The translations under genes were made by a program, and so were the position numbers. Positions 1,984 to 13,010 of a stretch of 55,716 bases of DNA are shown piece after piece; the stretch's first letter is position 1, and every line of letters begins with the position of its first letter. Source of the stretch: Bacteroidia bacterium (lineage in GTDB: Bacteria > Bacteroidota > Bacteroidia > Bacteroidales > Prolixibacteraceae); the NCBI GenBank assembly GCA_026391295.1, contig JAPLDS010000025.1, forward strand, positions 1-55,716, in the 5' to 3' direction. The notes beneath the pieces were generated by a model. The model was not told the DNA's origin. It saw only the letters and a list, made by a program, of their open reading frames with translations, and searched no databases.

Positions 1984-2892
1984 CTATTCGCCAACGCTTA
2001 CTTCAACTTGTGCAGCCTGAATCATTACACCTTTAAAGTTAACTTGTGGTTTGATTATTCTTGTGATTACTTGTTCGCCTTGTTTTAAGTTTTCATCAGG
2101 GCGGAAATTTGCAGAAACTTTCATTCCTTGGTCATATGGTTGATTAAGCATATCAATCATTTCATACCCATTTGCTTTGAAATTATCTTGAATACGCTCC
2201 ACCGATGCCGAAAGCTGTTTCAATCCTTTGGTTTCAGAATCCATATTACTAAGGTTTTTATGAATACGAATAATTTCATCTGCTACTTTCAATGCCAATG
2301 AATGGTCAACTTCTTCTGCTTTAGCAGATGATGTTTGTCTTTCTGCATTCATCAACTGCATTTGAGTATCAAGCAATTTAATTAGTTGTCCGTCAAGTTT
2401 TATTTGCTCGTCTCTCAAGGTTTCAGAAGTCTTTTTTATTTGGTCTGATAAGCCAGTTTTCTCTTTACTCAATTGCTTTTTAAGCCAACCAAAAAGCAGA
2501 ACAGACAAAAGAGCAATGAATAAAACTGCAATAATCCAGTATAGCGTATTTTTGCCAACCTTTTCATTTAATGTTGAGAGGTCTGCACTTGCTTTTTCGC
2601 TTGTTTGTTGAATTTTAACACCTAAATTATCTGCGATTGTCTGCAAATTGTTATTTGTGTTTGCCAAATTATTTTTCAAAATATTGAGACTATCAGCGGT
2701 AGCTGATAGTTTTTTTTCAATTTGTTGAATGTTGGAATTTGCAGTGTTTAACTGTCCCGATAACTTGATATTTGCTCCTTCAAGTTTTTCGATACTAGTT
2801 TGTAATTGTTGTATTGTGTCGTTTTTAGCTTGTGCAAATGAAGCAATGCTAAAAATTCCAATAGCTGTTATAGTTAAAAGTAGTTTTCTCAT
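1984..2892 (-). CDS. Membrane-anchored coiled-coil protein with GrpE-like C-terminal domain
   Basis: The protein has 302 residues. An N-terminal signal-like segment (1-20, ending ASFAQA) is followed by a coiled coil (about 25-115) rich in Gln, Asn, Leu and Lys. One transmembrane helix (117-136, core WIIAVLFIALLSVLLFGWL) comes next, then a second coiled coil (about 140-190). The C-terminus (about 195-302) reads like a degenerate GrpE: an NGYEMIDMLNQPYDQG segment recalls GrpE's conserved G-x-x-FDP turn, and the ending IQAAQVEVSVG recalls the RPAxVxVS beta-strand. I infer a nucleotide-exchange factor for the adjacent Hsp70, tethered to the inner membrane with its N-terminal coiled coil outside. 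The start overlaps the previous gene's stop (ATGA). The GrpE assignment is by eye and needs profile or structure support. Confidence 0.7.
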   Translation of the reverse strand: MRKLLLTITAIGIFSIASFAQAKNDTIQQLQTSIEKLEGANIKLSGQLNTANSNIQQIEKKLSATADSLNILKNNLANTNNNLQTIADNLGVKIQQTSEKASADLSTLNEKVGKNTLYWIIAVLFIALLSVLLFGWLKKQLSKEKTGLSDQIKKTSETLRDEQIKLDGQLIKLLDTQMQLMNAERQTSSAKAEEVDHSLALKVADEIIRIHKNLSNMDSETKGLKQLSASVERIQDNFKANGYEMIDMLNQPYDQGMKVSANFRPDENLKQGEQVITRIIKPQVNFKGVMIQAAQVEVSVGE

Positions 2893-4610
2893 TTGATAAT
2901 TCGTATTAAGGTGTTTAAAACTGATTTTATTGATTGGTTTACAAGGTGTTTGTCTTTTAAAAGTTCAACAAGTTTTGGCGAATATTTGTAATAGATTCTG
3001 ATGAAACCACGACCAAATGCCGTTTTTGAAAGAGTGTTATCTCTAAATTTTCGTAATTCTATCACTTGTGGATGTTCATAACTACCATATGCCATAGTCG
3101 CAATGTAGCAACCTCCGCTACTGCTGCTTGAACTACTTTGTCTGTTTGCTACTTGGTTAAGCTGTGATTGAATATTTGAGATGGTTGTTTTATTTTGGTT
3201 AAATCTGTTACGAAGTTCATAAACCATATCCATACCCGACATAAGATTTATAACCTCTAAAGCAGATGAAATGGTAGTTGGAAGTGTAAATAGTTTTGTT
3301 CTGTCATATTGCAATCCGTTTTGTGCTTCATTCACAACAGAAATCAAAGCATTTAAAGCATTATTTACTACTGCACTACTTAGTTTTGAATAGAAATCAT
3401 CGGTAGAACCCAACGCAGTTTTAATGTTGATTAATTTTGGTTTGCAAGAAACAACAAGGTCTTTTGCATTAGAAATTGTGTCAGGTATGTTTTGGAAGCG
3501 TTGCAGTTTGCTTGCAACAAATTCAAGGTCTTCTTTTATTTTACTGTGTCTATTTCTTTCTTCACTATCATTTATCCACTCTTGAACATTTTCAATATTT
3601 TCATCTAAACGACTTTTTGTTTGTCCAGTTGGATTAATGGCTTTAGCCATTTTCATAACTTTCATTGCAGATTCTCCGGGGTCAAAATCATTATTCCCTT
3701 GAAGCTCATTAAAAAATTCAATAGCACATTGCAGAATTTCATTTGCCAATTTATTGGCAATCATTTGATATTGAACATTATTTGCACCCCAAACATTTTT
3801 GAGAAACACTAAATCCTCTTTTGTGTTTTTATACAATTCCTCGCCATACTCTTCGGCATCATTGGGGTTATCGTCTCTTTTTTGCTTGGTTTTTTCAATT
3901 TGATTCTCGATATTATTTATAGGTCGGTCGGTAAACTTTCCTGAAACATATTGTCGAATTTCATTAGGGAATGAATTAAAAGCACTGATTAATTGGCTTG
4001 ATTTTATTCCATTTGGTTTGTTTAGGTAAGGCTTAATGATTTGCATTACTTCATCTGCAAATTCTTTAAGAATTGTTTCTCGATTAATTGAAATGCCTTC
4101 ACCAATTACCGTTTTAATAAAACTGTCGCAAGCATCAGACATTATCAACTTACCCTTTAATTCAATAGATGCAGTAAACTTTTCGGGGTCAAATGAACCG
4201 TTATAAGTAACAATTCCAAGTTGTAGCGTCGAAAGGTTACTTATTGCAGCAAAATTTTTAACCGTTACTGTTGAATCTTTTAAAGTTTTCTCCCATATCT
4301 CGGTCGCTTTTTCAATATGACCATCTTTCAAATTGTTTAATGCAGCTTCATCAATATGTCCGCTGTTTAAAAACCAAAATAGAGCATAATGGACTTTATT
4401 TTTTGCTTGTTCTATTTTACTCGCTGCTTCTTGTACCTTTTCTGTGCTACGAACAACTTCTCCGAAAAACGGGAAGTCATAGTCAAACGCCTTAGTTTTT
4501 CCGACTTCTGCAAATCTCTTTATGGTTGCAATTTGCTTTTGCAGTTCCTTTTCGGTTGAGTTTCCAAAAAGTCCAAGCGTTCTGTAAGGATTATTTTTTA
4601 CTGCATTCAT
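2889..4610 (-). CDS. J-domain-like protein with CFI-box C-terminal domain
   Basis: The chosen start is ATG at 4610, giving MNAVKNNPYRTLGL; an in-frame TTG at 4625 would add five residues. The N-terminus NPYRTLGL followed by a helical region resembles the opening of J-domains, but no HPD tripeptide is visible. The next 80 residues (FDYDFPFFGE, ALFWFLN) match a DnaJ-like family I know beside Hsp70 genes. A long helical middle leads to a Ser-rich linker. The last ~75 residues begin GGCYIATMAYGSYEHP and continue LRKFRD and YYKYSP, the CFI-box C-terminal domain found on varied bacterial proteins. It heads the chaperone operon (J-like, GrpE-like, Hsp70), so it is probably the co-chaperone or client adaptor. 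The CFI-box function is unknown. Confidence 0.8.
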   Translation of the reverse strand: MNAVKNNPYRTLGLFGNSTEKELQKQIATIKRFAEVGKTKAFDYDFPFFGEVVRSTEKVQEAASKIEQAKNKVHYALFWFLNSGHIDEAALNNLKDGHIEKATEIWEKTLKDSTVTVKNFAAISNLSTLQLGIVTYNGSFDPEKFTASIELKGKLIMSDACDSFIKTVIGEGISINRETILKEFADEVMQIIKPYLNKPNGIKSSQLISAFNSFPNEIRQYVSGKFTDRPINNIENQIEKTKQKRDDNPNDAEEYGEELYKNTKEDLVFLKNVWGANNVQYQMIANKLANEILQCAIEFFNELQGNNDFDPGESAMKVMKMAKAINPTGQTKSRLDENIENVQEWINDSEERNRHSKIKEDLEFVASKLQRFQNIPDTISNAKDLVVSCKPKLINIKTALGSTDDFYSKLSSAVVNNALNALISVVNEAQNGLQYDRTKLFTLPTTISSALEVINLMSGMDMVYELRNRFNQNKTTISNIQSQLNQVANRQSSSSSSSGGCYIATMAYGSYEHPQVIELRKFRDNTLSKTAFGRGFIRIYYKYSPKLVELLKDKHLVNQSIKSVLNTLIRIIK

Positions 4611-4660
4611 ATCTGTTGAATTCAAAATGTTATTGTTCTTAATCGTGGGTAGGTAAAAAA

Positions 4661-5048: not shown

Positions 5049-5417
5049 TTACTTTTTCAAAATTAATATTGTCGCAATAGTTCCAATTAGCACAAGACCA
5101 CACACTACGAATAAAAGTGTTTTCAACAGGTTTATTTCCTTGTCTTGTTTGTCTAAACGACTTGGGAAGTCAATAGTAGAAAGAGTACTTGTCAAAGTTT
5201 CTGTTGCTTTTATCAATTGCTTATGAGGGTCTAAAATTTTGCTTACATCTTCTGTAACACTTGTCAAATGTGTATTAAACGAAGTTTGTAATTGTGTTGC
5301 AGTTTTCACAGCTTGTTCAGCTACATTTTTTGATTGGGCAACATGCTCAACTGCGCTTTGCAGTTTAGATATTTCGCTATTCATTGATTTTAAATTGTCG
5401 TCTAATTCTTTAAACAT
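5049..5417 (-). CDS. Small coiled-coil protein with C-terminal membrane anchor
   Basis: The protein has 122 residues. Residues 1-98 are predicted by eye to be a long amphipathic coiled coil (KSMNSEISKLQSAVEHVAQ and similar heptads). A single hydrophobic helix (about 100-119, LLFVVCGLVLIGTIATILIL) and a KK tail follow, giving a tail-anchored topology with the coiled coil in the cytoplasm. I recognise no family. Its start overlaps the helicase stop by 8 bp, so the two are translationally coupled. It may place the helicase-nuclease at the membrane, paralleling the membrane-anchored GrpE-like protein of the next gene set. That role is inference. Confidence 0.75.
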   Translation of the reverse strand: MFKELDDNLKSMNSEISKLQSAVEHVAQSKNVAEQAVKTATQLQTSFNTHLTSVTEDVSKILDPHKQLIKATETLTSTLSTIDFPSRLDKQDKEINLLKTLLFVVCGLVLIGTIATILILKK

Positions 5418-8400
5418 ATTCTTTTAGTATTTTTTTATTAATTGTTACGAAGTGATTTAAAACTTGTTTTGACAAAACACTTTGAATGTTTTTATGATGA
5501 TTTGCTAATGAGTTTACATCTTTTTCTTTAATGCAATTCTCAACTTGATTGAGGATTTTGTCAAATTCTTCCAAAGGAAATCCATTATCAATAATGTATA
5601 TATCTTTTGTTCTGCTTAATAAAGCTGAATTATCAGTATTGTTTATCATTGTGGCTGAATAGTACTGAAGTAATGAAATTACAGGATTTTTATTATACGA
5701 TTCCAAACTCCTTCTTGCCGAATTTTCAAGCTGTCTTAATTGGTCATTATTTATTGCCTTATTGGAGAAATATTCAAATACTGAAAAATCTAACTTGCTA
5801 CCAAATTCTGTTACGTCTCTAATTTCATCAACAAATCTTGAATCAAAATAATCATTAACCGTTTGAAGGAACATTGCATTACCGATATTTTCAGCCTCTT
5901 GCTTTGATTTCCCTAAATTAGTGGCCTTAATTGTTTCTGAAATTGCTTTTTCAATTGTGTCAGTCATATTGTTTAGTGCAGTTTCTCGTTTGCTGAAAAC
6001 ATTATCATATGTAAAATCAATTAAAGTGTTGATGCTATTACGCAATGCTGTTCTTTCGCTTCCATTACGAGCATTCTGCATTAATGAAGTTACATAGTTT
6101 TCAGGGTAATATCTTCTAAAATGCGTATAAAGATTTTGATAAATTTCTTCGGCTGTTTGATTTTGACAAATTGCATTTATTGATTTCGCACCGTAATCAA
6201 TTGTATAATCTTTTACTACACCTAATATTGACAAACGGTAAATAATTTTGAACGTATCTTGTTCCTGCCTTACTTGTTTAAATAACACTTTTAAATCATT
6301 TGTTTGTTGTGCAGAAAAAGTTATTACATTACCATAAGTTCTTCTGTAATTTGTTTCAAGGTTTATTATAAAATCATTGTCACTTTGACAATAGTTTGTT
6401 GAGTTTTTGACCAAAGAATAGTCGAATAATGGATTAAAATATTGATTTAGATACTCTAAAACTTGTTGAACACCATTGTTTTCTAGGCCAATTGTAATTA
6501 CGTTTGTTTGATTAATTGGTATTTTGCTAATGATGAATTCTACGCCTTGCTTTTCAGGCGTAATATTTACATTTTGCAACCAGTCTATTAAACTTAAATT
6601 TTTTGGATTATTATTTTTAACAAATTTTGTTATTGTATTTAATAAATTTAAAGCTTCAATGTCGCTACACATATTATTTCCTTGTGTAGATATTTGCAAA
6701 TTTGAAATAAAAATAAATCCGTATTTTTGACCAAATTCAGCTCCGCTAATATAAATTCTAGTTGGGAATTCACTTGGCCAGGGTTTGCTTAATTTTATTT
6801 CCTTTCCTAAATTAGAAAAAACATCGTCTTGTGTTTGGTCTTTATTTGATGTATGAGGAAATGTAATTCGGTCTAAAAGTTCAACTGTAATGCTTTTTTC
6901 ATAATCGCCTCCTTTAAAAGAGTTAAATAAAAATGTGTCTTGAATATTTCGTGCTACCGAAACCATTTTGCCTTTTGAATTTGGCACTAATAAATTGTTA
7001 CAATGTAAAATATAACAAACTGCATTTTTTCTATCTCTTCCTGCTCGACCTGCTTCTTGATAAAAACCTTCTATTGAAATTGGATGGGTAATGTGTAAAG
7101 TAAAACGAATATTGGGCTTATCAATTCCCATTCCAAAAGCCTTAGTAGCAACTAGTAAAGTTATTTTGTTACTTTTAAAATCGTCTTGAACTTGCTCTAA
7201 TGAAGCACTATCTCCGCTTCCATAATATTCGCCAATTAAATGCGCAACATCAGGAAATTGTTGTCTTAAATAGGTTGCAATGTGTTGTACTCCGAAATTT
7301 CCCGTACCTGAATATGGGCAAAAGATAATTCCACAATTGGAATTATTTCCTTGATATTTAATGAAGTCAGAAAATGAGATTGCATTACATTCTCTCAAAT
7401 GAGGTTCAGAAATTAAATCATTTTGTAATATATTCAAAAGACCTTGTTTCTTTGCTTCAAAAACGGAATTGTAAATAGTCCAAAAATTGTTTCCTGCACC
7501 TATGTTAATTGCTGTAATGTTTTTAATTTTAAACTTTAATTCTTTTCTTTCTAACTTTTCGGGTCTGATAATATCGCTATTGTTTTGTAGACCTACTTCT
7601 CGTTGCACATCACTTAATACATCAAAAGAGGCGGTTCCTGTAAGTCCTAATGTGGGGATATTTTCGCCATTATGTCCTGAAAAACAAAATATCCTTGAAT
7701 TATCACCAAGCTTTAAATAAGCCGTTCTGAAATCGTGTCCCCATTCTGAAACACAATGAGCTTCATCTATTACGCAAAAAGCAAAATTTCTAGAATTGGC
7801 TCTTACACTTCCTATTTTAGTTCTGAAATCATTAATTACAAAGCGTTCAGGAGAAACAAAAGCAAATAAGCAATTACCATTTACAAATTTATTTGTGTTT
7901 GCTTCCTTTTCTTTGGCTGACAATGTTGAATTAATATATGTTGTAGCGTCAATGAAAACATTTTTAAGGTTTTCGTTTTGGTCTTTCATTAAAGCTTTAA
8001 TTGGGTCAACAACAATTATTAAACCTGCCTGCAGAAGTGATGCAACTTGATAAGTTAATGATTTACCAGCACCTGTAGGTAAAAGTGCAATTGGATTTCT
8101 TTTTTGTAACGCTTTTGATAATATTTCAATTTGTCCTTCTCTAAAACTTGTTTTTCTAAAAAAAGATTGCAAGAAAAAATTCAGGCTTTCAGTTCTATCA
8201 TCTTCTTTGTTTTCAGGTGCATTTTCGTATTTAATGAATTTATGAAAGTTGAAAGTTCGAGTATATTCTGTATGATGAATAGAACGAATTACAATCGTAT
8301 TTTGTACTAAACTTTGAGTTGGTCGATTTAGAAAAGTTGAATAATTTAGAATAGAAATATCTATAACTAAATCATAATTGCGAAAGTCAGAATTAGCATT

Positions 8401-9546
8401 GAAAATTTGACAGTTATTATCTGCATTGAGTTTTGCGTTAGCAAACTCAAGGGTATTAAATATTGTAATTTCCAAATTAGGCAATTGTAATTCTTCCCCA
8501 TTTTCGTTTTGCAATATTGATAAATGCTTTATCTGTAATAGCAAATCATCAATTGCAATTTTGCCACAAGGAATATCTCTTTCTATGATTGCAATATTTA
8601 GAGTTTTAGCATTAATAAAAGTCTCTCCATTTTTATTCTTTATACCACTTTTGAGGGCTTTTAAAAATGCTTTTTGCACTCTTGATATTCCGAACGGGGA
8701 AAGATATAATTGCAAATAATCCATACCAATTTCATCATAAAACAGTGGCTTTTCAATGTTTTGTTTGAAAGTTCGAATATAGGGATGTTGAAAATAAGCA
8801 CTTATTTTGTTTTTTTGAATTTCAGTCAAATTATTTACTTCATTTGTCCAAATTCTAATTGTGTCAAAATTATTTTGGTCTGCAAAAAAATCTCTTCTTT
8901 GGTCTTTTATCGATTGTGCTGGTTCTTTATGCTGTTGCCCATCAATTTCAATTACAACCCCGTTTCTAAAGCCCTCAGATTTTGGAAGTTGAATCAAAAA
9001 ATCAATATTTTGGTGCATGAATAAATCTTCTGCTTGACTTCCAACAACAGATGCCATCGTTCTTTGAAGTTGCAAGAGTTGATTTGTGTTATCTCCGAAA
9101 CGCAAAATTGAATTTATGAAAAAATCTTTTTCATATTGACTGCCTCCGTGTTCTTCCCAATTGTTGTATGTGTTTTCAGAGTTTAATTCTTGCGTTCTAC
9201 TGTCGGCAATTACCAAGCACTTTAAAAAATCAGTAGAAGCGGATTTTTTTAAGTCAAAAGAAATAGTTCCGATTTCATTTGTTTTTTCAGAAGTCAAATT
9301 GAATATACGTTCAAATTCTCTTTCTATAAATATGCTCGAAATTGTCGGAAGTCCTCTTGAAATTTGATTGTCAAGAACCGACAATATGGGATGTTCAGAT
9401 TCATTGTCAGAATTGTTAATCGTTGGATTTTGACAATAAAATTTGGATAAGTTCGTCGCTATTTCAAACCAATAGTTTTTGTCAACAGAGTTTTCAATGT
9501 TTTTTGCAACTCCTTGTAAAATATGTCCTGCGAAAAATTCTGTCAT
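5410..9546 (-). CDS. RecQ-like helicase fused to DUF559/Vsr-like PD-(D/E)XK nuclease (1378 aa)
   Basis: The middle is a RecQ-type superfamily 2 helicase. A FREGQIEIL Q-motif-like segment (468-476) precedes Walker A LLPTGAGKS (488-496), the DEAH box (594-597), motif III TGTAS (636-640), a VATKAFGMGIDKPNIRF block (799-815) and motif VI QEAGRAGRDR (830-839). Ahead of it, residues 180-235 read IDFLIQLP, then VIEIDGQQH (198-206), then QRRDFF and IRIWTNEV. This is the D...ExDGxxH...RD pattern of DUF559/Vsr-type endonucleases, with D182, E200 and D202 as candidate metal ligands. Residues 860-1378 match nothing I recognise. RecQ itself is about 600 aa, so this is a dedicated large enzyme, likely acting on foreign DNA. 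It is the first gene after the recombinase. Confidence 0.85.
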   Translation of the reverse strand: MTEFFAGHILQGVAKNIENSVDKNYWFEIATNLSKFYCQNPTINNSDNESEHPILSVLDNQISRGLPTISSIFIEREFERIFNLTSEKTNEIGTISFDLKKSASTDFLKCLVIADSRTQELNSENTYNNWEEHGGSQYEKDFFINSILRFGDNTNQLLQLQRTMASVVGSQAEDLFMHQNIDFLIQLPKSEGFRNGVVIEIDGQQHKEPAQSIKDQRRDFFADQNNFDTIRIWTNEVNNLTEIQKNKISAYFQHPYIRTFKQNIEKPLFYDEIGMDYLQLYLSPFGISRVQKAFLKALKSGIKNKNGETFINAKTLNIAIIERDIPCGKIAIDDLLLQIKHLSILQNENGEELQLPNLEITIFNTLEFANAKLNADNNCQIFNANSDFRNYDLVIDISILNYSTFLNRPTQSLVQNTIVIRSIHHTEYTRTFNFHKFIKYENAPENKEDDRTESLNFFLQSFFRKTSFREGQIEILSKALQKRNPIALLPTGAGKSLTYQVASLLQAGLIIVVDPIKALMKDQNENLKNVFIDATTYINSTLSAKEKEANTNKFVNGNCLFAFVSPERFVINDFRTKIGSVRANSRNFAFCVIDEAHCVSEWGHDFRTAYLKLGDNSRIFCFSGHNGENIPTLGLTGTASFDVLSDVQREVGLQNNSDIIRPEKLERKELKFKIKNITAINIGAGNNFWTIYNSVFEAKKQGLLNILQNDLISEPHLRECNAISFSDFIKYQGNNSNCGIIFCPYSGTGNFGVQHIATYLRQQFPDVAHLIGEYYGSGDSASLEQVQDDFKSNKITLLVATKAFGMGIDKPNIRFTLHITHPISIEGFYQEAGRAGRDRKNAVCYILHCNNLLVPNSKGKMVSVARNIQDTFLFNSFKGGDYEKSITVELLDRITFPHTSNKDQTQDDVFSNLGKEIKLSKPWPSEFPTRIYISGAEFGQKYGFIFISNLQISTQGNNMCSDIEALNLLNTITKFVKNNNPKNLSLIDWLQNVNITPEKQGVEFIISKIPINQTNVITIGLENNGVQQVLEYLNQYFNPLFDYSLVKNSTNYCQSDNDFIINLETNYRRTYGNVITFSAQQTNDLKVLFKQVRQEQDTFKIIYRLSILGVVKDYTIDYGAKSINAICQNQTAEEIYQNLYTHFRRYYPENYVTSLMQNARNGSERTALRNSINTLIDFTYDNVFSKRETALNNMTDTIEKAISETIKATNLGKSKQEAENIGNAMFLQTVNDYFDSRFVDEIRDVTEFGSKLDFSVFEYFSNKAINNDQLRQLENSARRSLESYNKNPVISLLQYYSATMINNTDNSALLSRTKDIYIIDNGFPLEEFDKILNQVENCIKEKDVNSLANHHKNIQSVLSKQVLNHFVTINKKILKEYV

Positions 9547-9697: not shown

Positions 9698-10654
9698 TTA
9701 TTTGTACAAATCATCAAACGGAGACCTGATCTTCTGTATACTCTTCTCCGTTACATGCGTGTATATTTCGGTCGTCTTGCTGCTTCTGTGACCTAATAAT
9801 TCCTGAATATACCTTAAATCCGTACCCGACTCTAATAAATGGGTGGCATACGAATGCCGAAGCCAATGTAACGTTACCGGCTTAGATATCCTCGCCTTCC
9901 GAAGCGCTATCTTTAAAACACTCTGGATGCTTTTTTCACTATACTGCTCACCCGGATACTGCCCCTCAAATAACCAAACCCTAGGCCGGTAATACCGATA
10001 GTATTCCCTCAAAAGCTCAATTAGATTGTCGGAAATAGGCACCACCCGGTCTTTTCTCCCCTTCCCATTAATTATTAATAATAAATGTCGCTTAGAATCG
10101 ATGTGGACTGGCCTTAAATTTAATAGCTCACCTCGTCTCAACCCACAAGCATAGATTACTGTTAACATCATCCGATGCTTCATGTTTGTTGAGACCTTTA
10201 AAATTAGTCCAACTTCCTCCTTGCTCAGCACGTTCGGTAGCTTGTGCTCATGACGTGGACGATCTAAATGCTCGGTTATCAATAAGGACCCTCGGATAGT
10301 TTTGAAAAATAACTTTGCTGCATTTATTGCCTGGTTCTGGTACGAAAAACTTAGATTCCGAGGAATCATGTATGAATTAACAAATTGCCGCATGTCATTA
10401 TTCGTCGCTTCTGAACTAGTCTTTGGCTTGATAAACCTAAGAAATATTGTGATCGCCATGATATACGTCTTCACCGTAGAGTCACTATATCGCTTTTGCT
10501 CCATCCATTGCTTAAATGTTGCGATTTCCTCAATAGTGTCAAAATCTAATGAGGGCAAGGAATGTCTAACTGCTTGGTTTTTGGGTTCTTCATTTGATGA
10601 AGAATCAAGCATCGTATTAACCAATTCTTTTGACTTGATTCTCAGAGTTGCCAT
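9698..10654 (-). CDS. Tyrosine recombinase/integrase (XerC/IntI-like)
   Basis: The protein has 318 residues. A SAM-like core-binding domain (about 40-125) is followed by a catalytic domain with the full active site: R173 in GLRRGE, K198 in GKGRKD, H263-x-x-R266 in HWLRHS, H289 in LLGH and nucleophile Y298 in IYTHV. The ending VTEKSIQKIRSPFDDL resembles the IntI C-terminus (RSPLDAL). The extra helix that defines true IntI proteins, between the lysine strand and HxxR, is absent. It lies just upstream of the cassette boundary and is transcribed towards the cassettes, as in reverse integrons. It may be an unusual integron integrase or an ordinary Bacteroidetes island integrase. Confidence 0.92.
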   Translation of the reverse strand: MATLRIKSKELVNTMLDSSSNEEPKNQAVRHSLPSLDFDTIEEIATFKQWMEQKRYSDSTVKTYIMAITIFLRFIKPKTSSEATNNDMRQFVNSYMIPRNLSFSYQNQAINAAKLFFKTIRGSLLITEHLDRPRHEHKLPNVLSKEEVGLILKVSTNMKHRMMLTVIYACGLRRGELLNLRPVHIDSKRHLLLIINGKGRKDRVVPISDNLIELLREYYRYYRPRVWLFEGQYPGEQYSEKSIQSVLKIALRKARISKPVTLHWLRHSYATHLLESGTDLRYIQELLGHRSSKTTEIYTHVTEKSIQKIRSPFDDLYK

Positions 10655-11191: not shown

Positions 11192-13010
11192 ATGAAGTTT
11201 AATCTTAGAAGCGAAACAACAACAATGGGCCGTCGAATGGCTGGGGCTCGTAGCCTCTGGAGAGCTAACGGAATGAAAGAAGAACATTTCGGGAAACCTC
11301 TGATCGCCATCGTTAACTCCTTTACGCAATTTGTACCCGGTCATGCCCATTTGCATGAGATCGGACAAATGGTGAAGGGTCTAATCGAGAAAGAGGGTTG
11401 CTTTGCAGCAGAATTTAATACCATCGCCATCGACGACGGTATCGCCATGGGTCACGATGGGATGTTATACTCGCTGCCATCACGCGACCTGATCGCCGAT
11501 AGCGTCGAATATATGATCAATGGTCATAAAGCCGATGCGATGATCTGCATCTCGAACTGCGACAAGATAACTCCGGGCATGCTGATGGCTGCCATGCGAC
11601 TCAATATCCCTTGTATCTTCGTCTCGGGTGGTCCAATGGAAGCTGGCGTAGTCGATGGTAAAAAATACGACCTTGTCGATGCAATGGTGATGGCTGCCGA
11701 TCCTTCGGTAGACGAAAAATTGCTTCTTCAAGTCGAACAAGATGCTTGTCCAACCTGTGGCTCATGCTCTGGAATGTTCACCGCTAACTCGATGAACTGC
11801 CTTACTGAAGCGTTAGGCCTTTCACTTCCCGGTAACGGAACTGTTGTGGCTACTCAAACTTTTCGAAAAAGCGGCTAAACGCTTAATCGAGATCACGGTT
11901 GACTATTATAAAAATGGGAACGAAAGTGTGTTGCCTCGTGCAATCGCTTCTCGCGCTGCATTTATGAACTCCATGACACTTGATATTGCCATGGGTGGTT
12001 CAACCAATACGGTGTTGCATATGTTGGCTGTTGCTCATGAAGCGGGTGTCGACTTTACCATGAAAGATATTGATAACTTATCGAGAAGAGTTCCTTGTAT
12101 CTGCAAGGTAGCTCCTAGCGCTCACTACCATATTCAAGATGTCAATCGCGCTGGCGGTATCATGGGTATCTTAGGTGAACTCGAAAGAGGTGGGCTACTT
12201 GATACTTCGGTGTCGCGTGTGACTGAAGGGACTCTTGGTGAGGCTATTAAAGCTTGGGATCTTCTTCGCTCTACCGCAGTGGATGATGCTAAAAATGTAT
12301 ATGGTTCGGCCCCTGGAAATATTGGTCGGAATTTAGTGATGGGTTCTCAAAATGCAATTTTTGCTGAGTTTGACCTTGATCGTGAGAAAGGGTGTATCCG
12401 TAGTGTGGAGAATGCCTATACCAAAGAGGGTGGTCTTGCTATTCTTTATGGCAATATTGCCCGTAAAGGGTGCATTGTTAAAACGGCAGGTGTCGATCCT
12501 TCGGTATTTCAGTTTAGTGGCGTAGCACGAGTTTACGAGTCGCAAGATGATGCCTGTGAAGGGATCCTTAAACGCCAAGTTAAAGCTGGAGAGGTAGTGA
12601 TCATCCGTTACGAAGGTCCGAAAGGTGGGCCAGGAATGCAGGAGATGCTTTATCCAACTTCTTATCTTAAAGCTTCTAAGCTTGATAAGGTGTGCGCGTT
12701 ACTGACCGACGGACGATTCTCTGGAGGTACTTCAGGGTTGTCAATTGGTCACGTGTCTCCTGAAGCAGCAGCTGGAGGAGAGATTGCACTAGTTCAAGAT
12801 GGCGATCGTATTGATATTGATATTTCACAACGTAAAATAGAATTAATTATCTCAGATCAAGAGCTGGAAGCACGTAAGAAAGCAGAAGAGGCGAGAGGTA
12901 AGATGGCTTATCAGCCTGCAAATAGAAATAGAATAATCAGCAAAGCCTTAAAAGCTTATGCTAGCCTTGTTGCTTCGGCAGATATGGGTGCAGTACGTAT
13001 TATAGACTAA
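11192..13010 (+). pseudogene. ilvD: Dihydroxy-acid dehydratase, broken by a frameshift
   Basis: IlvD dehydrates 2,3-dihydroxy-3-methyl(iso)valerate in valine, isoleucine and leucine synthesis. The first frame (11192-11878) runs from [20 protein letters not shown] through the Fe-S motifs [12 protein letters not shown] and [17 protein letters not shown] to [10 protein letters not shown], then meets a stop. The second frame resumes at 11859 with [17 protein letters not shown] and continues to the normal C-terminus, including [22 protein letters not shown]. Family members have six residues (pattern HANRKA) between GTVVAT and LFEKA; here only four nucleotides remain (11855-11858), implying a 14-nt deletion. 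Without it the protein would be about 611 aa, the usual length. It is either a true null in an otherwise intact operon or a sequence or assembly error. Confidence 0.9.

Follow-up and report, generated by a model that had tools for sequence, protein, structure and literature searches.

A predicted membrane-anchored GrpE-fold protein as the likely nucleotide-exchange factor of a dedicated Hsp70 in a mobile gene module

Bacterial GrpE is a soluble, general factor. The gene studied here, which we call T, raises the question of whether a protein with a GrpE-type exchange domain can instead be tethered to the inner membrane and serve an Hsp70 of its own. T is an intact ORF with an ATG start, encoding 302 aa on the minus strand of the window, by which we mean the whole 55,716-nucleotide stretch of DNA analysed (contig C36). 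From the evidence set out below, T is likely to be anchored in the membrane and to serve, by a GrpE-type fold, as nucleotide-exchange factor of the Hsp70 encoded by the adjoining gene, H; it is also likely that the module encoding both is mobile and probably acts in envelope stress or phage defence. The layout of T is as follows.

1984..2892, minus strand: T, proposed membrane-anchored GrpE-fold protein and feature under study (ORF, family and predicted structure)
2827..2892, minus strand: T residues 1-22, signal-like N-terminus (MRKLLLTITAIGIFSIASFAQA), with a hydrophobic segment at 4-22
2548..2826, minus strand: T residues 23-115, weakly conserved coiled coil predicted to lie in the periplasm (model, conservation and Pfam noise)
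2482..2544, minus strand: T residues 117-137, transmembrane helix (Kyte-Doolittle scan)
2332..2481, minus strand: T residues 138-187, long helix, predicted counterpart of the GrpE long helix (model and Foldseek)
2173..2301, minus strand: T residues 198-240, two short helices, predicted counterpart of the GrpE four-helix-bundle pair (model)
1987..2172, minus strand: T residues 241-302, predicted beta-wing-like domain, NGYEMI...PYDQG...IIKPQVN...QAAQVEVSVG (model, Foldseek and alignment)

The topology signature was computed across the family. Exactly one strong internal transmembrane segment was detected by Kyte-Doolittle scan in 81 of 82 members (residues 119-137 in the T of the window), and T thus departs from the solubility expected of a GrpE. 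In the 82 members about three Lys or Arg residues occur in the eight positions after the segment and about one before it, a positive-inside bias which argues that the C-terminal domain is cytosolic. On the other side of the membrane, the AlphaFold2 model shows a single helix over residues 2-112, and the coiled-coil region attracts coiled-coil-type noise hits from Pfam. This region varies between members (mean majority frequency 0.37), and the best conserved part of the protein is the C-terminal domain, residues 196-300 (0.71). The initial annotation had proposed a periplasmic coiled coil, an inner-membrane tether and a cytosolic C-terminal domain; the conserved layout, the charge bias and the model helix support this arrangement.

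T belongs to a conserved module of several genes, a context that the initial annotation did not mention, although the Hsp70 partner that it had envisaged is present in the form of H, encoded directly downstream of T at 74 of about 77 judgeable loci. When GTDB genomes were scanned once with an alignment of five sequences, 101 relatives were returned, 80 of which were kept; relatives occur at about 100 loci, mostly in Bacteroidota, and the few from other phyla are all from MAGs, where contamination is possible. Searching with the single T sequence gave matches at E<=0.001 in 9 of 296 genomes of the phylum, of which only about five match beyond the coiled coil. Gene-by-gene comparison revealed the order J-T-H-K at nearly all T loci, followed by TerB at about half and DUF6804 at about a third. 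The median gaps (J-T -1 bp, T-H 19 bp and H-K 8 bp) are typical of an operon. Moreover, the pairwise identities of T and H show the best correlation of any gene pair (r=0.89 versus 0.70-0.79). At three loci (L079, L092 and L096) T has no H nearby; the orphans at L079:9001-9900 and L096:8488-9591 might be relics, or might rely on the housekeeping DnaK.

In the window, T lies in a minus-strand cluster of a helicase, a 122-aa protein, J, T and H that runs into the contig end.

3..1961, minus strand: H, Hsp70 of the DnaK type, truncated at the contig edge with 653 aa encoded (PF00012 E 1.3e-64)
2889..4625, minus strand: J, J-like partner of 578 aa, probably starting at the ATG at 4610 (HPD-less J-like fold, TPR-like helices and a C-terminal CFI-box)
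4368..4610, minus strand: residues 1-81 of the J model, predicted to fold like a J-domain (VIA-align and Foldseek)
2907..3110, minus strand: CFI-box-CTERM domain of J (NF041770 E 1.3e-22)
5049..5417, minus strand: small coiled-coil protein of 122 aa with a C-terminal transmembrane helix, outside the conserved module
5410..9546, minus strand: RecQ-like helicase of 1378 aa with a DUF559-like N-terminal region, island cargo
9698..10654, minus strand: tyrosine integrase at the island border (PF00589 E 6e-38, GC step at ~10 kb)

Contig C81 of the same genome opens inside K, at residue 167, and carries TerB and DUF6804 after it; the window therefore seems to contain the leading half of an operon of six genes, the join of C36 to C81 not being part of the assembly. 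No homologue of the 122-aa protein was found at the other T loci compared. The helicase was likewise rejected as a module member, since just one of the 84 loci has a homologue.

K combines a kinase-like domain, in whose consensus HNE replaces HRD, with an AAA+ ATPase of the Cdc48/Vps4 type; this unusual fusion (for example L010:13699-15513) is possibly a pseudokinase. A further gene, lipoprotein-like with a lipobox-type start, occurs in or beside the module at nine loci, mostly directly after H. Its product (L022:12503-13177, L052:12449-13126 and seven other loci) is about 225 aa long, with an SCES start, a charged coiled coil and a conserved YYGKGWNP domain; no Pfam family matches the protein over its cut-off. 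A phosphatase between H and K, guessed from gene size, was discarded, the ORFs there being lipoprotein-like or unrelated.

The module resides on a low-GC, integrase-flanked, defence-rich island. GC content is 30-34% up to about 10 kb of the window and 40-44% beyond; no tRNA was found at the border. Beside this border an ilvD-like dihydroxy-acid dehydratase is present as two overlapping ORFs (11192-11878 and 11844-13010), which points to a frameshift, either genuine or introduced by assembly. On C81 the island continues with a NUDIX gene, a PLD/ResIII helicase and a split-off DUF3427/S24 ORF. Elsewhere, at L102:7475-9924, three consecutive HigB/HigA-type-like toxin-antitoxin pairs lie downstream of the island genes. 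T was found in 1 of 18 genomes of the genus and 9 of 198 of the order, and the host genome encodes a separate canonical GrpE (on C30) as well as its own DnaK. Given these resident copies, the presence in a single genome of the genus and the low GC content, the module is not housekeeping. A further copy of T is carried by plasmid pHALHY02 of Haliscomenobacter hydrossis, where brxL and pglZ follow the module and a SIR2 gene lies about 6.7 kb upstream. In the viral contigs and phage genomes searched no relative of T was found, and T is therefore not a phage gene in these collections.

Proteins neighbouring the module matched 268 PADLOC model families at 1e-10, compared with 18 for a control set of similar size drawn from four further genomes in the phylum; since the models overlap heavily, these figures express enrichment and are not a count of systems. 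The helicase at 5410-9546 is itself matched by the PADLOC DpdF and PsyrT models (E 5e-78 to 2e-63) and probably represents an island defence gene distinct from the module. Defence-rich surroundings of this kind make an anti-phage role for the module plausible. A serious competitor, to which we give somewhat less than an even chance, is that the module performs envelope protein quality control, helping secretion or outer-membrane assembly, and has no part in defence. Membrane anchors throughout the module, the lipoprotein-like gene at nine loci and the resemblance to DjlA, through which DnaK is connected to the Rcs response to envelope stress (PMC11709261), are all in keeping with such a role. 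It fits less well with the patchy, mobile distribution, with brxL and pglZ adjoining the plasmid copy and with the PADLOC enrichment among the neighbours.

H has the features of a DnaK-type Hsp70. It carries an Hsp70 ATPase domain at residues 9-375, its best PDB matches are bacterial DnaKs, including the DnaK of the GrpE complex 4ani, and DLGTTNS is present in 72 of 72 H proteins, in a DnaK-type ATPase domain. H, cut by the contig end, scores 231.5 bits against the DnaK equivalog cut-off of 822.55. It is 61% identical to the plasmid homologue, in which, at full length, the Pfam HSP70 match spans only residues 8-403 of 841. By its PDB matches H falls within the DnaK group, and the putative partner of T is accordingly of the DnaK type. 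The neighbouring J protein also resembles a chaperone component. With model residues 1-81, the best eight rows from VIA-align were J-domains or J-type chains (Z 7.2-6.5), and the first Foldseek match was the CbpA J-domain, at an E of only 1.0. Mean pLDDT over the N-terminal 145 residues is 90, and we assign the predicted J-domain fold with moderate confidence.

The HPD motif is found in 0 of 80 J proteins. R167, N170 and T173 of DnaK, which published work implicates in the contact with the J-domain and its HPD, correspond to E, Q and I in the H of the window, and the R167 site is occupied by E in 53, Q in 12 and R in 2 of 73 H relatives, whereas all three residues are retained in the housekeeping DnaK of this genome. 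Loss of HPD from J together with loss of the contact residues from H suggests, at the level of sequence, that the J-Hsp70 contact has been rewired. J also appears in two forms: 46 of 80 J proteins have a transmembrane segment and 27 a CFI box, none having both, and the two are swapped even between close relatives, in 60 pairs of loci with 65-97% identity between their T proteins. The CFI box may thus be an unrecognised membrane anchor of J; a search of mainly open-access literature found no paper describing it as such.

The resemblance of T to GrpE is clearest in the predicted structure. In the AlphaFold2 model, analysed with DSSP, the C-terminal region follows the GrpE order of elements: a long helix (138-187), continuous with the transmembrane helix, two helices (198-215 and 224-240) and six strands between 243 and 301, with pLDDT of 86-92 across 201-300. 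When the model was compared with 350,542 PDB chains using Foldseek, the first 12 matches were all GrpE or GrpEL1 (E 2.1e-5 to 9.6e-3), and the next was an unrelated chain at E 0.079. The matches include the GrpE-DnaK complexes 1dkg, 4ani and 8gb3 and the GrpEL1-mortalin complex 9bls, and TM-scores by target length are 0.37-0.50; the large rmsd values probably reflect the pose of the long helix. VIA-align superposed T on GrpE with Z ~8 over 145-157 residues at an rmsd of 20-25 A. BAG, STAT and other helical bundles reached Z ~10 over fewer residues, ranking above GrpE, so the helical part of T alone is not GrpE-specific. VIA-align itself warns about helical bundles, so we gave this ranking no weight, and our assignment rests on Foldseek and the beta-wing. 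The GrpE-like fold proposed for this domain by the initial annotation is therefore what the predicted model displays, with long helix, bundle pair and six-strand wing.

Sequence comparison gave a fainter signal. T scores 17.2 bits against Pfam GrpE (PF01025), under the gathering cut-off of 25.8, and no T-like protein from 22 T-bearing genomes passes that cut-off; nevertheless GrpE is the commonest Pfam match among 40 T members (10 of 40, best E 4.6e-6). Alignment of the T domain with GrpE by hhalign gave E-values of 0.0036-0.0082 at a probability of only 5-9%. An HMM of the T domain placed GrpEs at ranks 1 to 4 against about 1000 decoys, and its best GrpE matches all share one register, which reaches the C-terminus of both families; the beta-wing-like domain is matched in it to the final 66 residues of GrpE. 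In the reverse test an HMM built from the GrpEs of 13 relatives failed to separate T proteins from decoys, and pairwise alignment with the genome's own GrpE was unconvincing (10 of 500 shuffles score as well). No GrpE was among the matches listed in a PDB sequence-profile search with the T domain, the best rows of which were coiled coils and BAG1 (E 0.3-0.8, not significant). A PROSITE-type GrpE pattern was dropped when it missed all 13 true GrpEs. Overall, the GrpE echo in T exceeds chance, and the sequence evidence for T as a GrpE is only borderline; because of this, T is by its predicted structure a remote GrpE-fold protein and not a canonical GrpE.

This distance from GrpE is one reason to consider that T docks or inhibits Hsp70 at the membrane without exchanging nucleotide, and the canonical J-domain contact lost from both J and H might mean that the whole cycle has been rewired. 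We consider this improbable, since the beta-wing-bearing domain is the part of T under the best conservation and the DLGTTNS-bearing ATPase domain of H likely runs an ATP cycle that needs resetting. Convergence, by which the helices and sheet of T, perhaps a BAG-like or generic adaptor, resemble GrpE without shared descent or function, could account for the weak sequence similarity and for the bundles that outrank GrpE on the helices (BAG domains are Hsp70 exchange factors too), yet it is very improbable in the face of the solely GrpE-type leading Foldseek matches, a sequence register reaching both C-termini and a T gene placed between J-like and Hsp70 genes.

If T is an exchange factor for H, as we favour, the polypeptide would lead from a coiled coil in the periplasm through one inner-membrane helix straight into a GrpE-type long helix, ending in the four-helix-bundle pair and beta-wing. 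The GrpE beta-wing opens the Hsp70 ATPase domain, and we infer that T similarly binds H and promotes ADP release. By analogy with GrpE, T would dimerise and bear its exchange domain on a helix continuous with the transmembrane helix. Since the long helix pair of E. coli GrpE is a thermosensor, the long helix of T would be a natural site for a periplasmic signal, for which the initial annotation put forward phage adsorption or DNA injection as candidates, and the tether could control activity. J, by its transmembrane helix or putatively its CFI box, would join T in docking the dedicated H at the inner membrane, with K and TerB perhaps completing the machine and acting on released or captured clients. 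The operon would then constitute a mobile accessory module, probably for envelope stress or phage defence. That something happening in the periplasm, for instance a phage attacking the envelope, acts via a helix pair extending from the periplasmic coiled coil to the GrpE-like long helix and switches exchange on a dedicated, HPD-independent Hsp70 machine, making the module a mobile anti-phage system, is a tentative extension that we think rather unlikely in this full form.

An entire chaperone machine thus seems to be anchored at the cell envelope. If this holds, a type I membrane GrpE-fold protein, its own Hsp70 and an HPD-less J protein would show that bacteria can relocate the entire Hsp70 cycle to the envelope in rewired form. 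The module bears on two questions: whether an Hsp70 machine is able to operate in the absence of the HPD-R167 contact, and whether control of exchange can act across a membrane. Present in a few per cent of the Bacteroidota genomes sampled, it is frequent enough for study in flavobacteria that are in culture. Annotation at present conceals it, T on the plasmid being named 'septum formation initiator'.

In the mainly open-access literature searched, no description of a membrane-anchored GrpE, or of the T operon in defence, was found. T shares with GrpE the predicted long helix, two short helices and six-strand beta-wing, and its gene lies beside Hsp70 and J-like genes; it adds a signal-like N-terminus, a periplasmic coiled coil and a transmembrane helix. 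In the best reading T is GrpE-like in action, yet it scores below the GrpE family cut-off and is differently located. That Hsp70/J chaperones can feed phage sensing is illustrated by bNACHT25 with DnaJ, which differs in using host DnaJ and DnaK and no dedicated or membrane-bound exchange factor (PMC12169576). Accessory HSP70-GrpE-DnaJ sets also occur in predicted conflict loci, with HSP70, GrpE and DnaJ fusions in GAP1-N2 GTPase-centred systems; these are mainly actinobacterial or firmicute, and the parts of that account consulted include no membrane-anchored GrpE and no such kinase-AAA+ protein (Kaur et al. 2020, PMC7159879). By analogy, the closest precedent for the mechanism proposed for T would be DjlA, a membrane-anchored DnaK co-chaperone of E. 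coli whose induction of Rcs needs DnaK and GrpE (PMC11709261). With its transmembrane helix, TerB-like domain and J-domain, DjlA couples cytosolic Hsp70 to the inner membrane, TerB included; it differs in that the J-protein is anchored and the housekeeping DnaK and GrpE are used, whereas the T module would anchor the exchange factor and supply a dedicated Hsp70.
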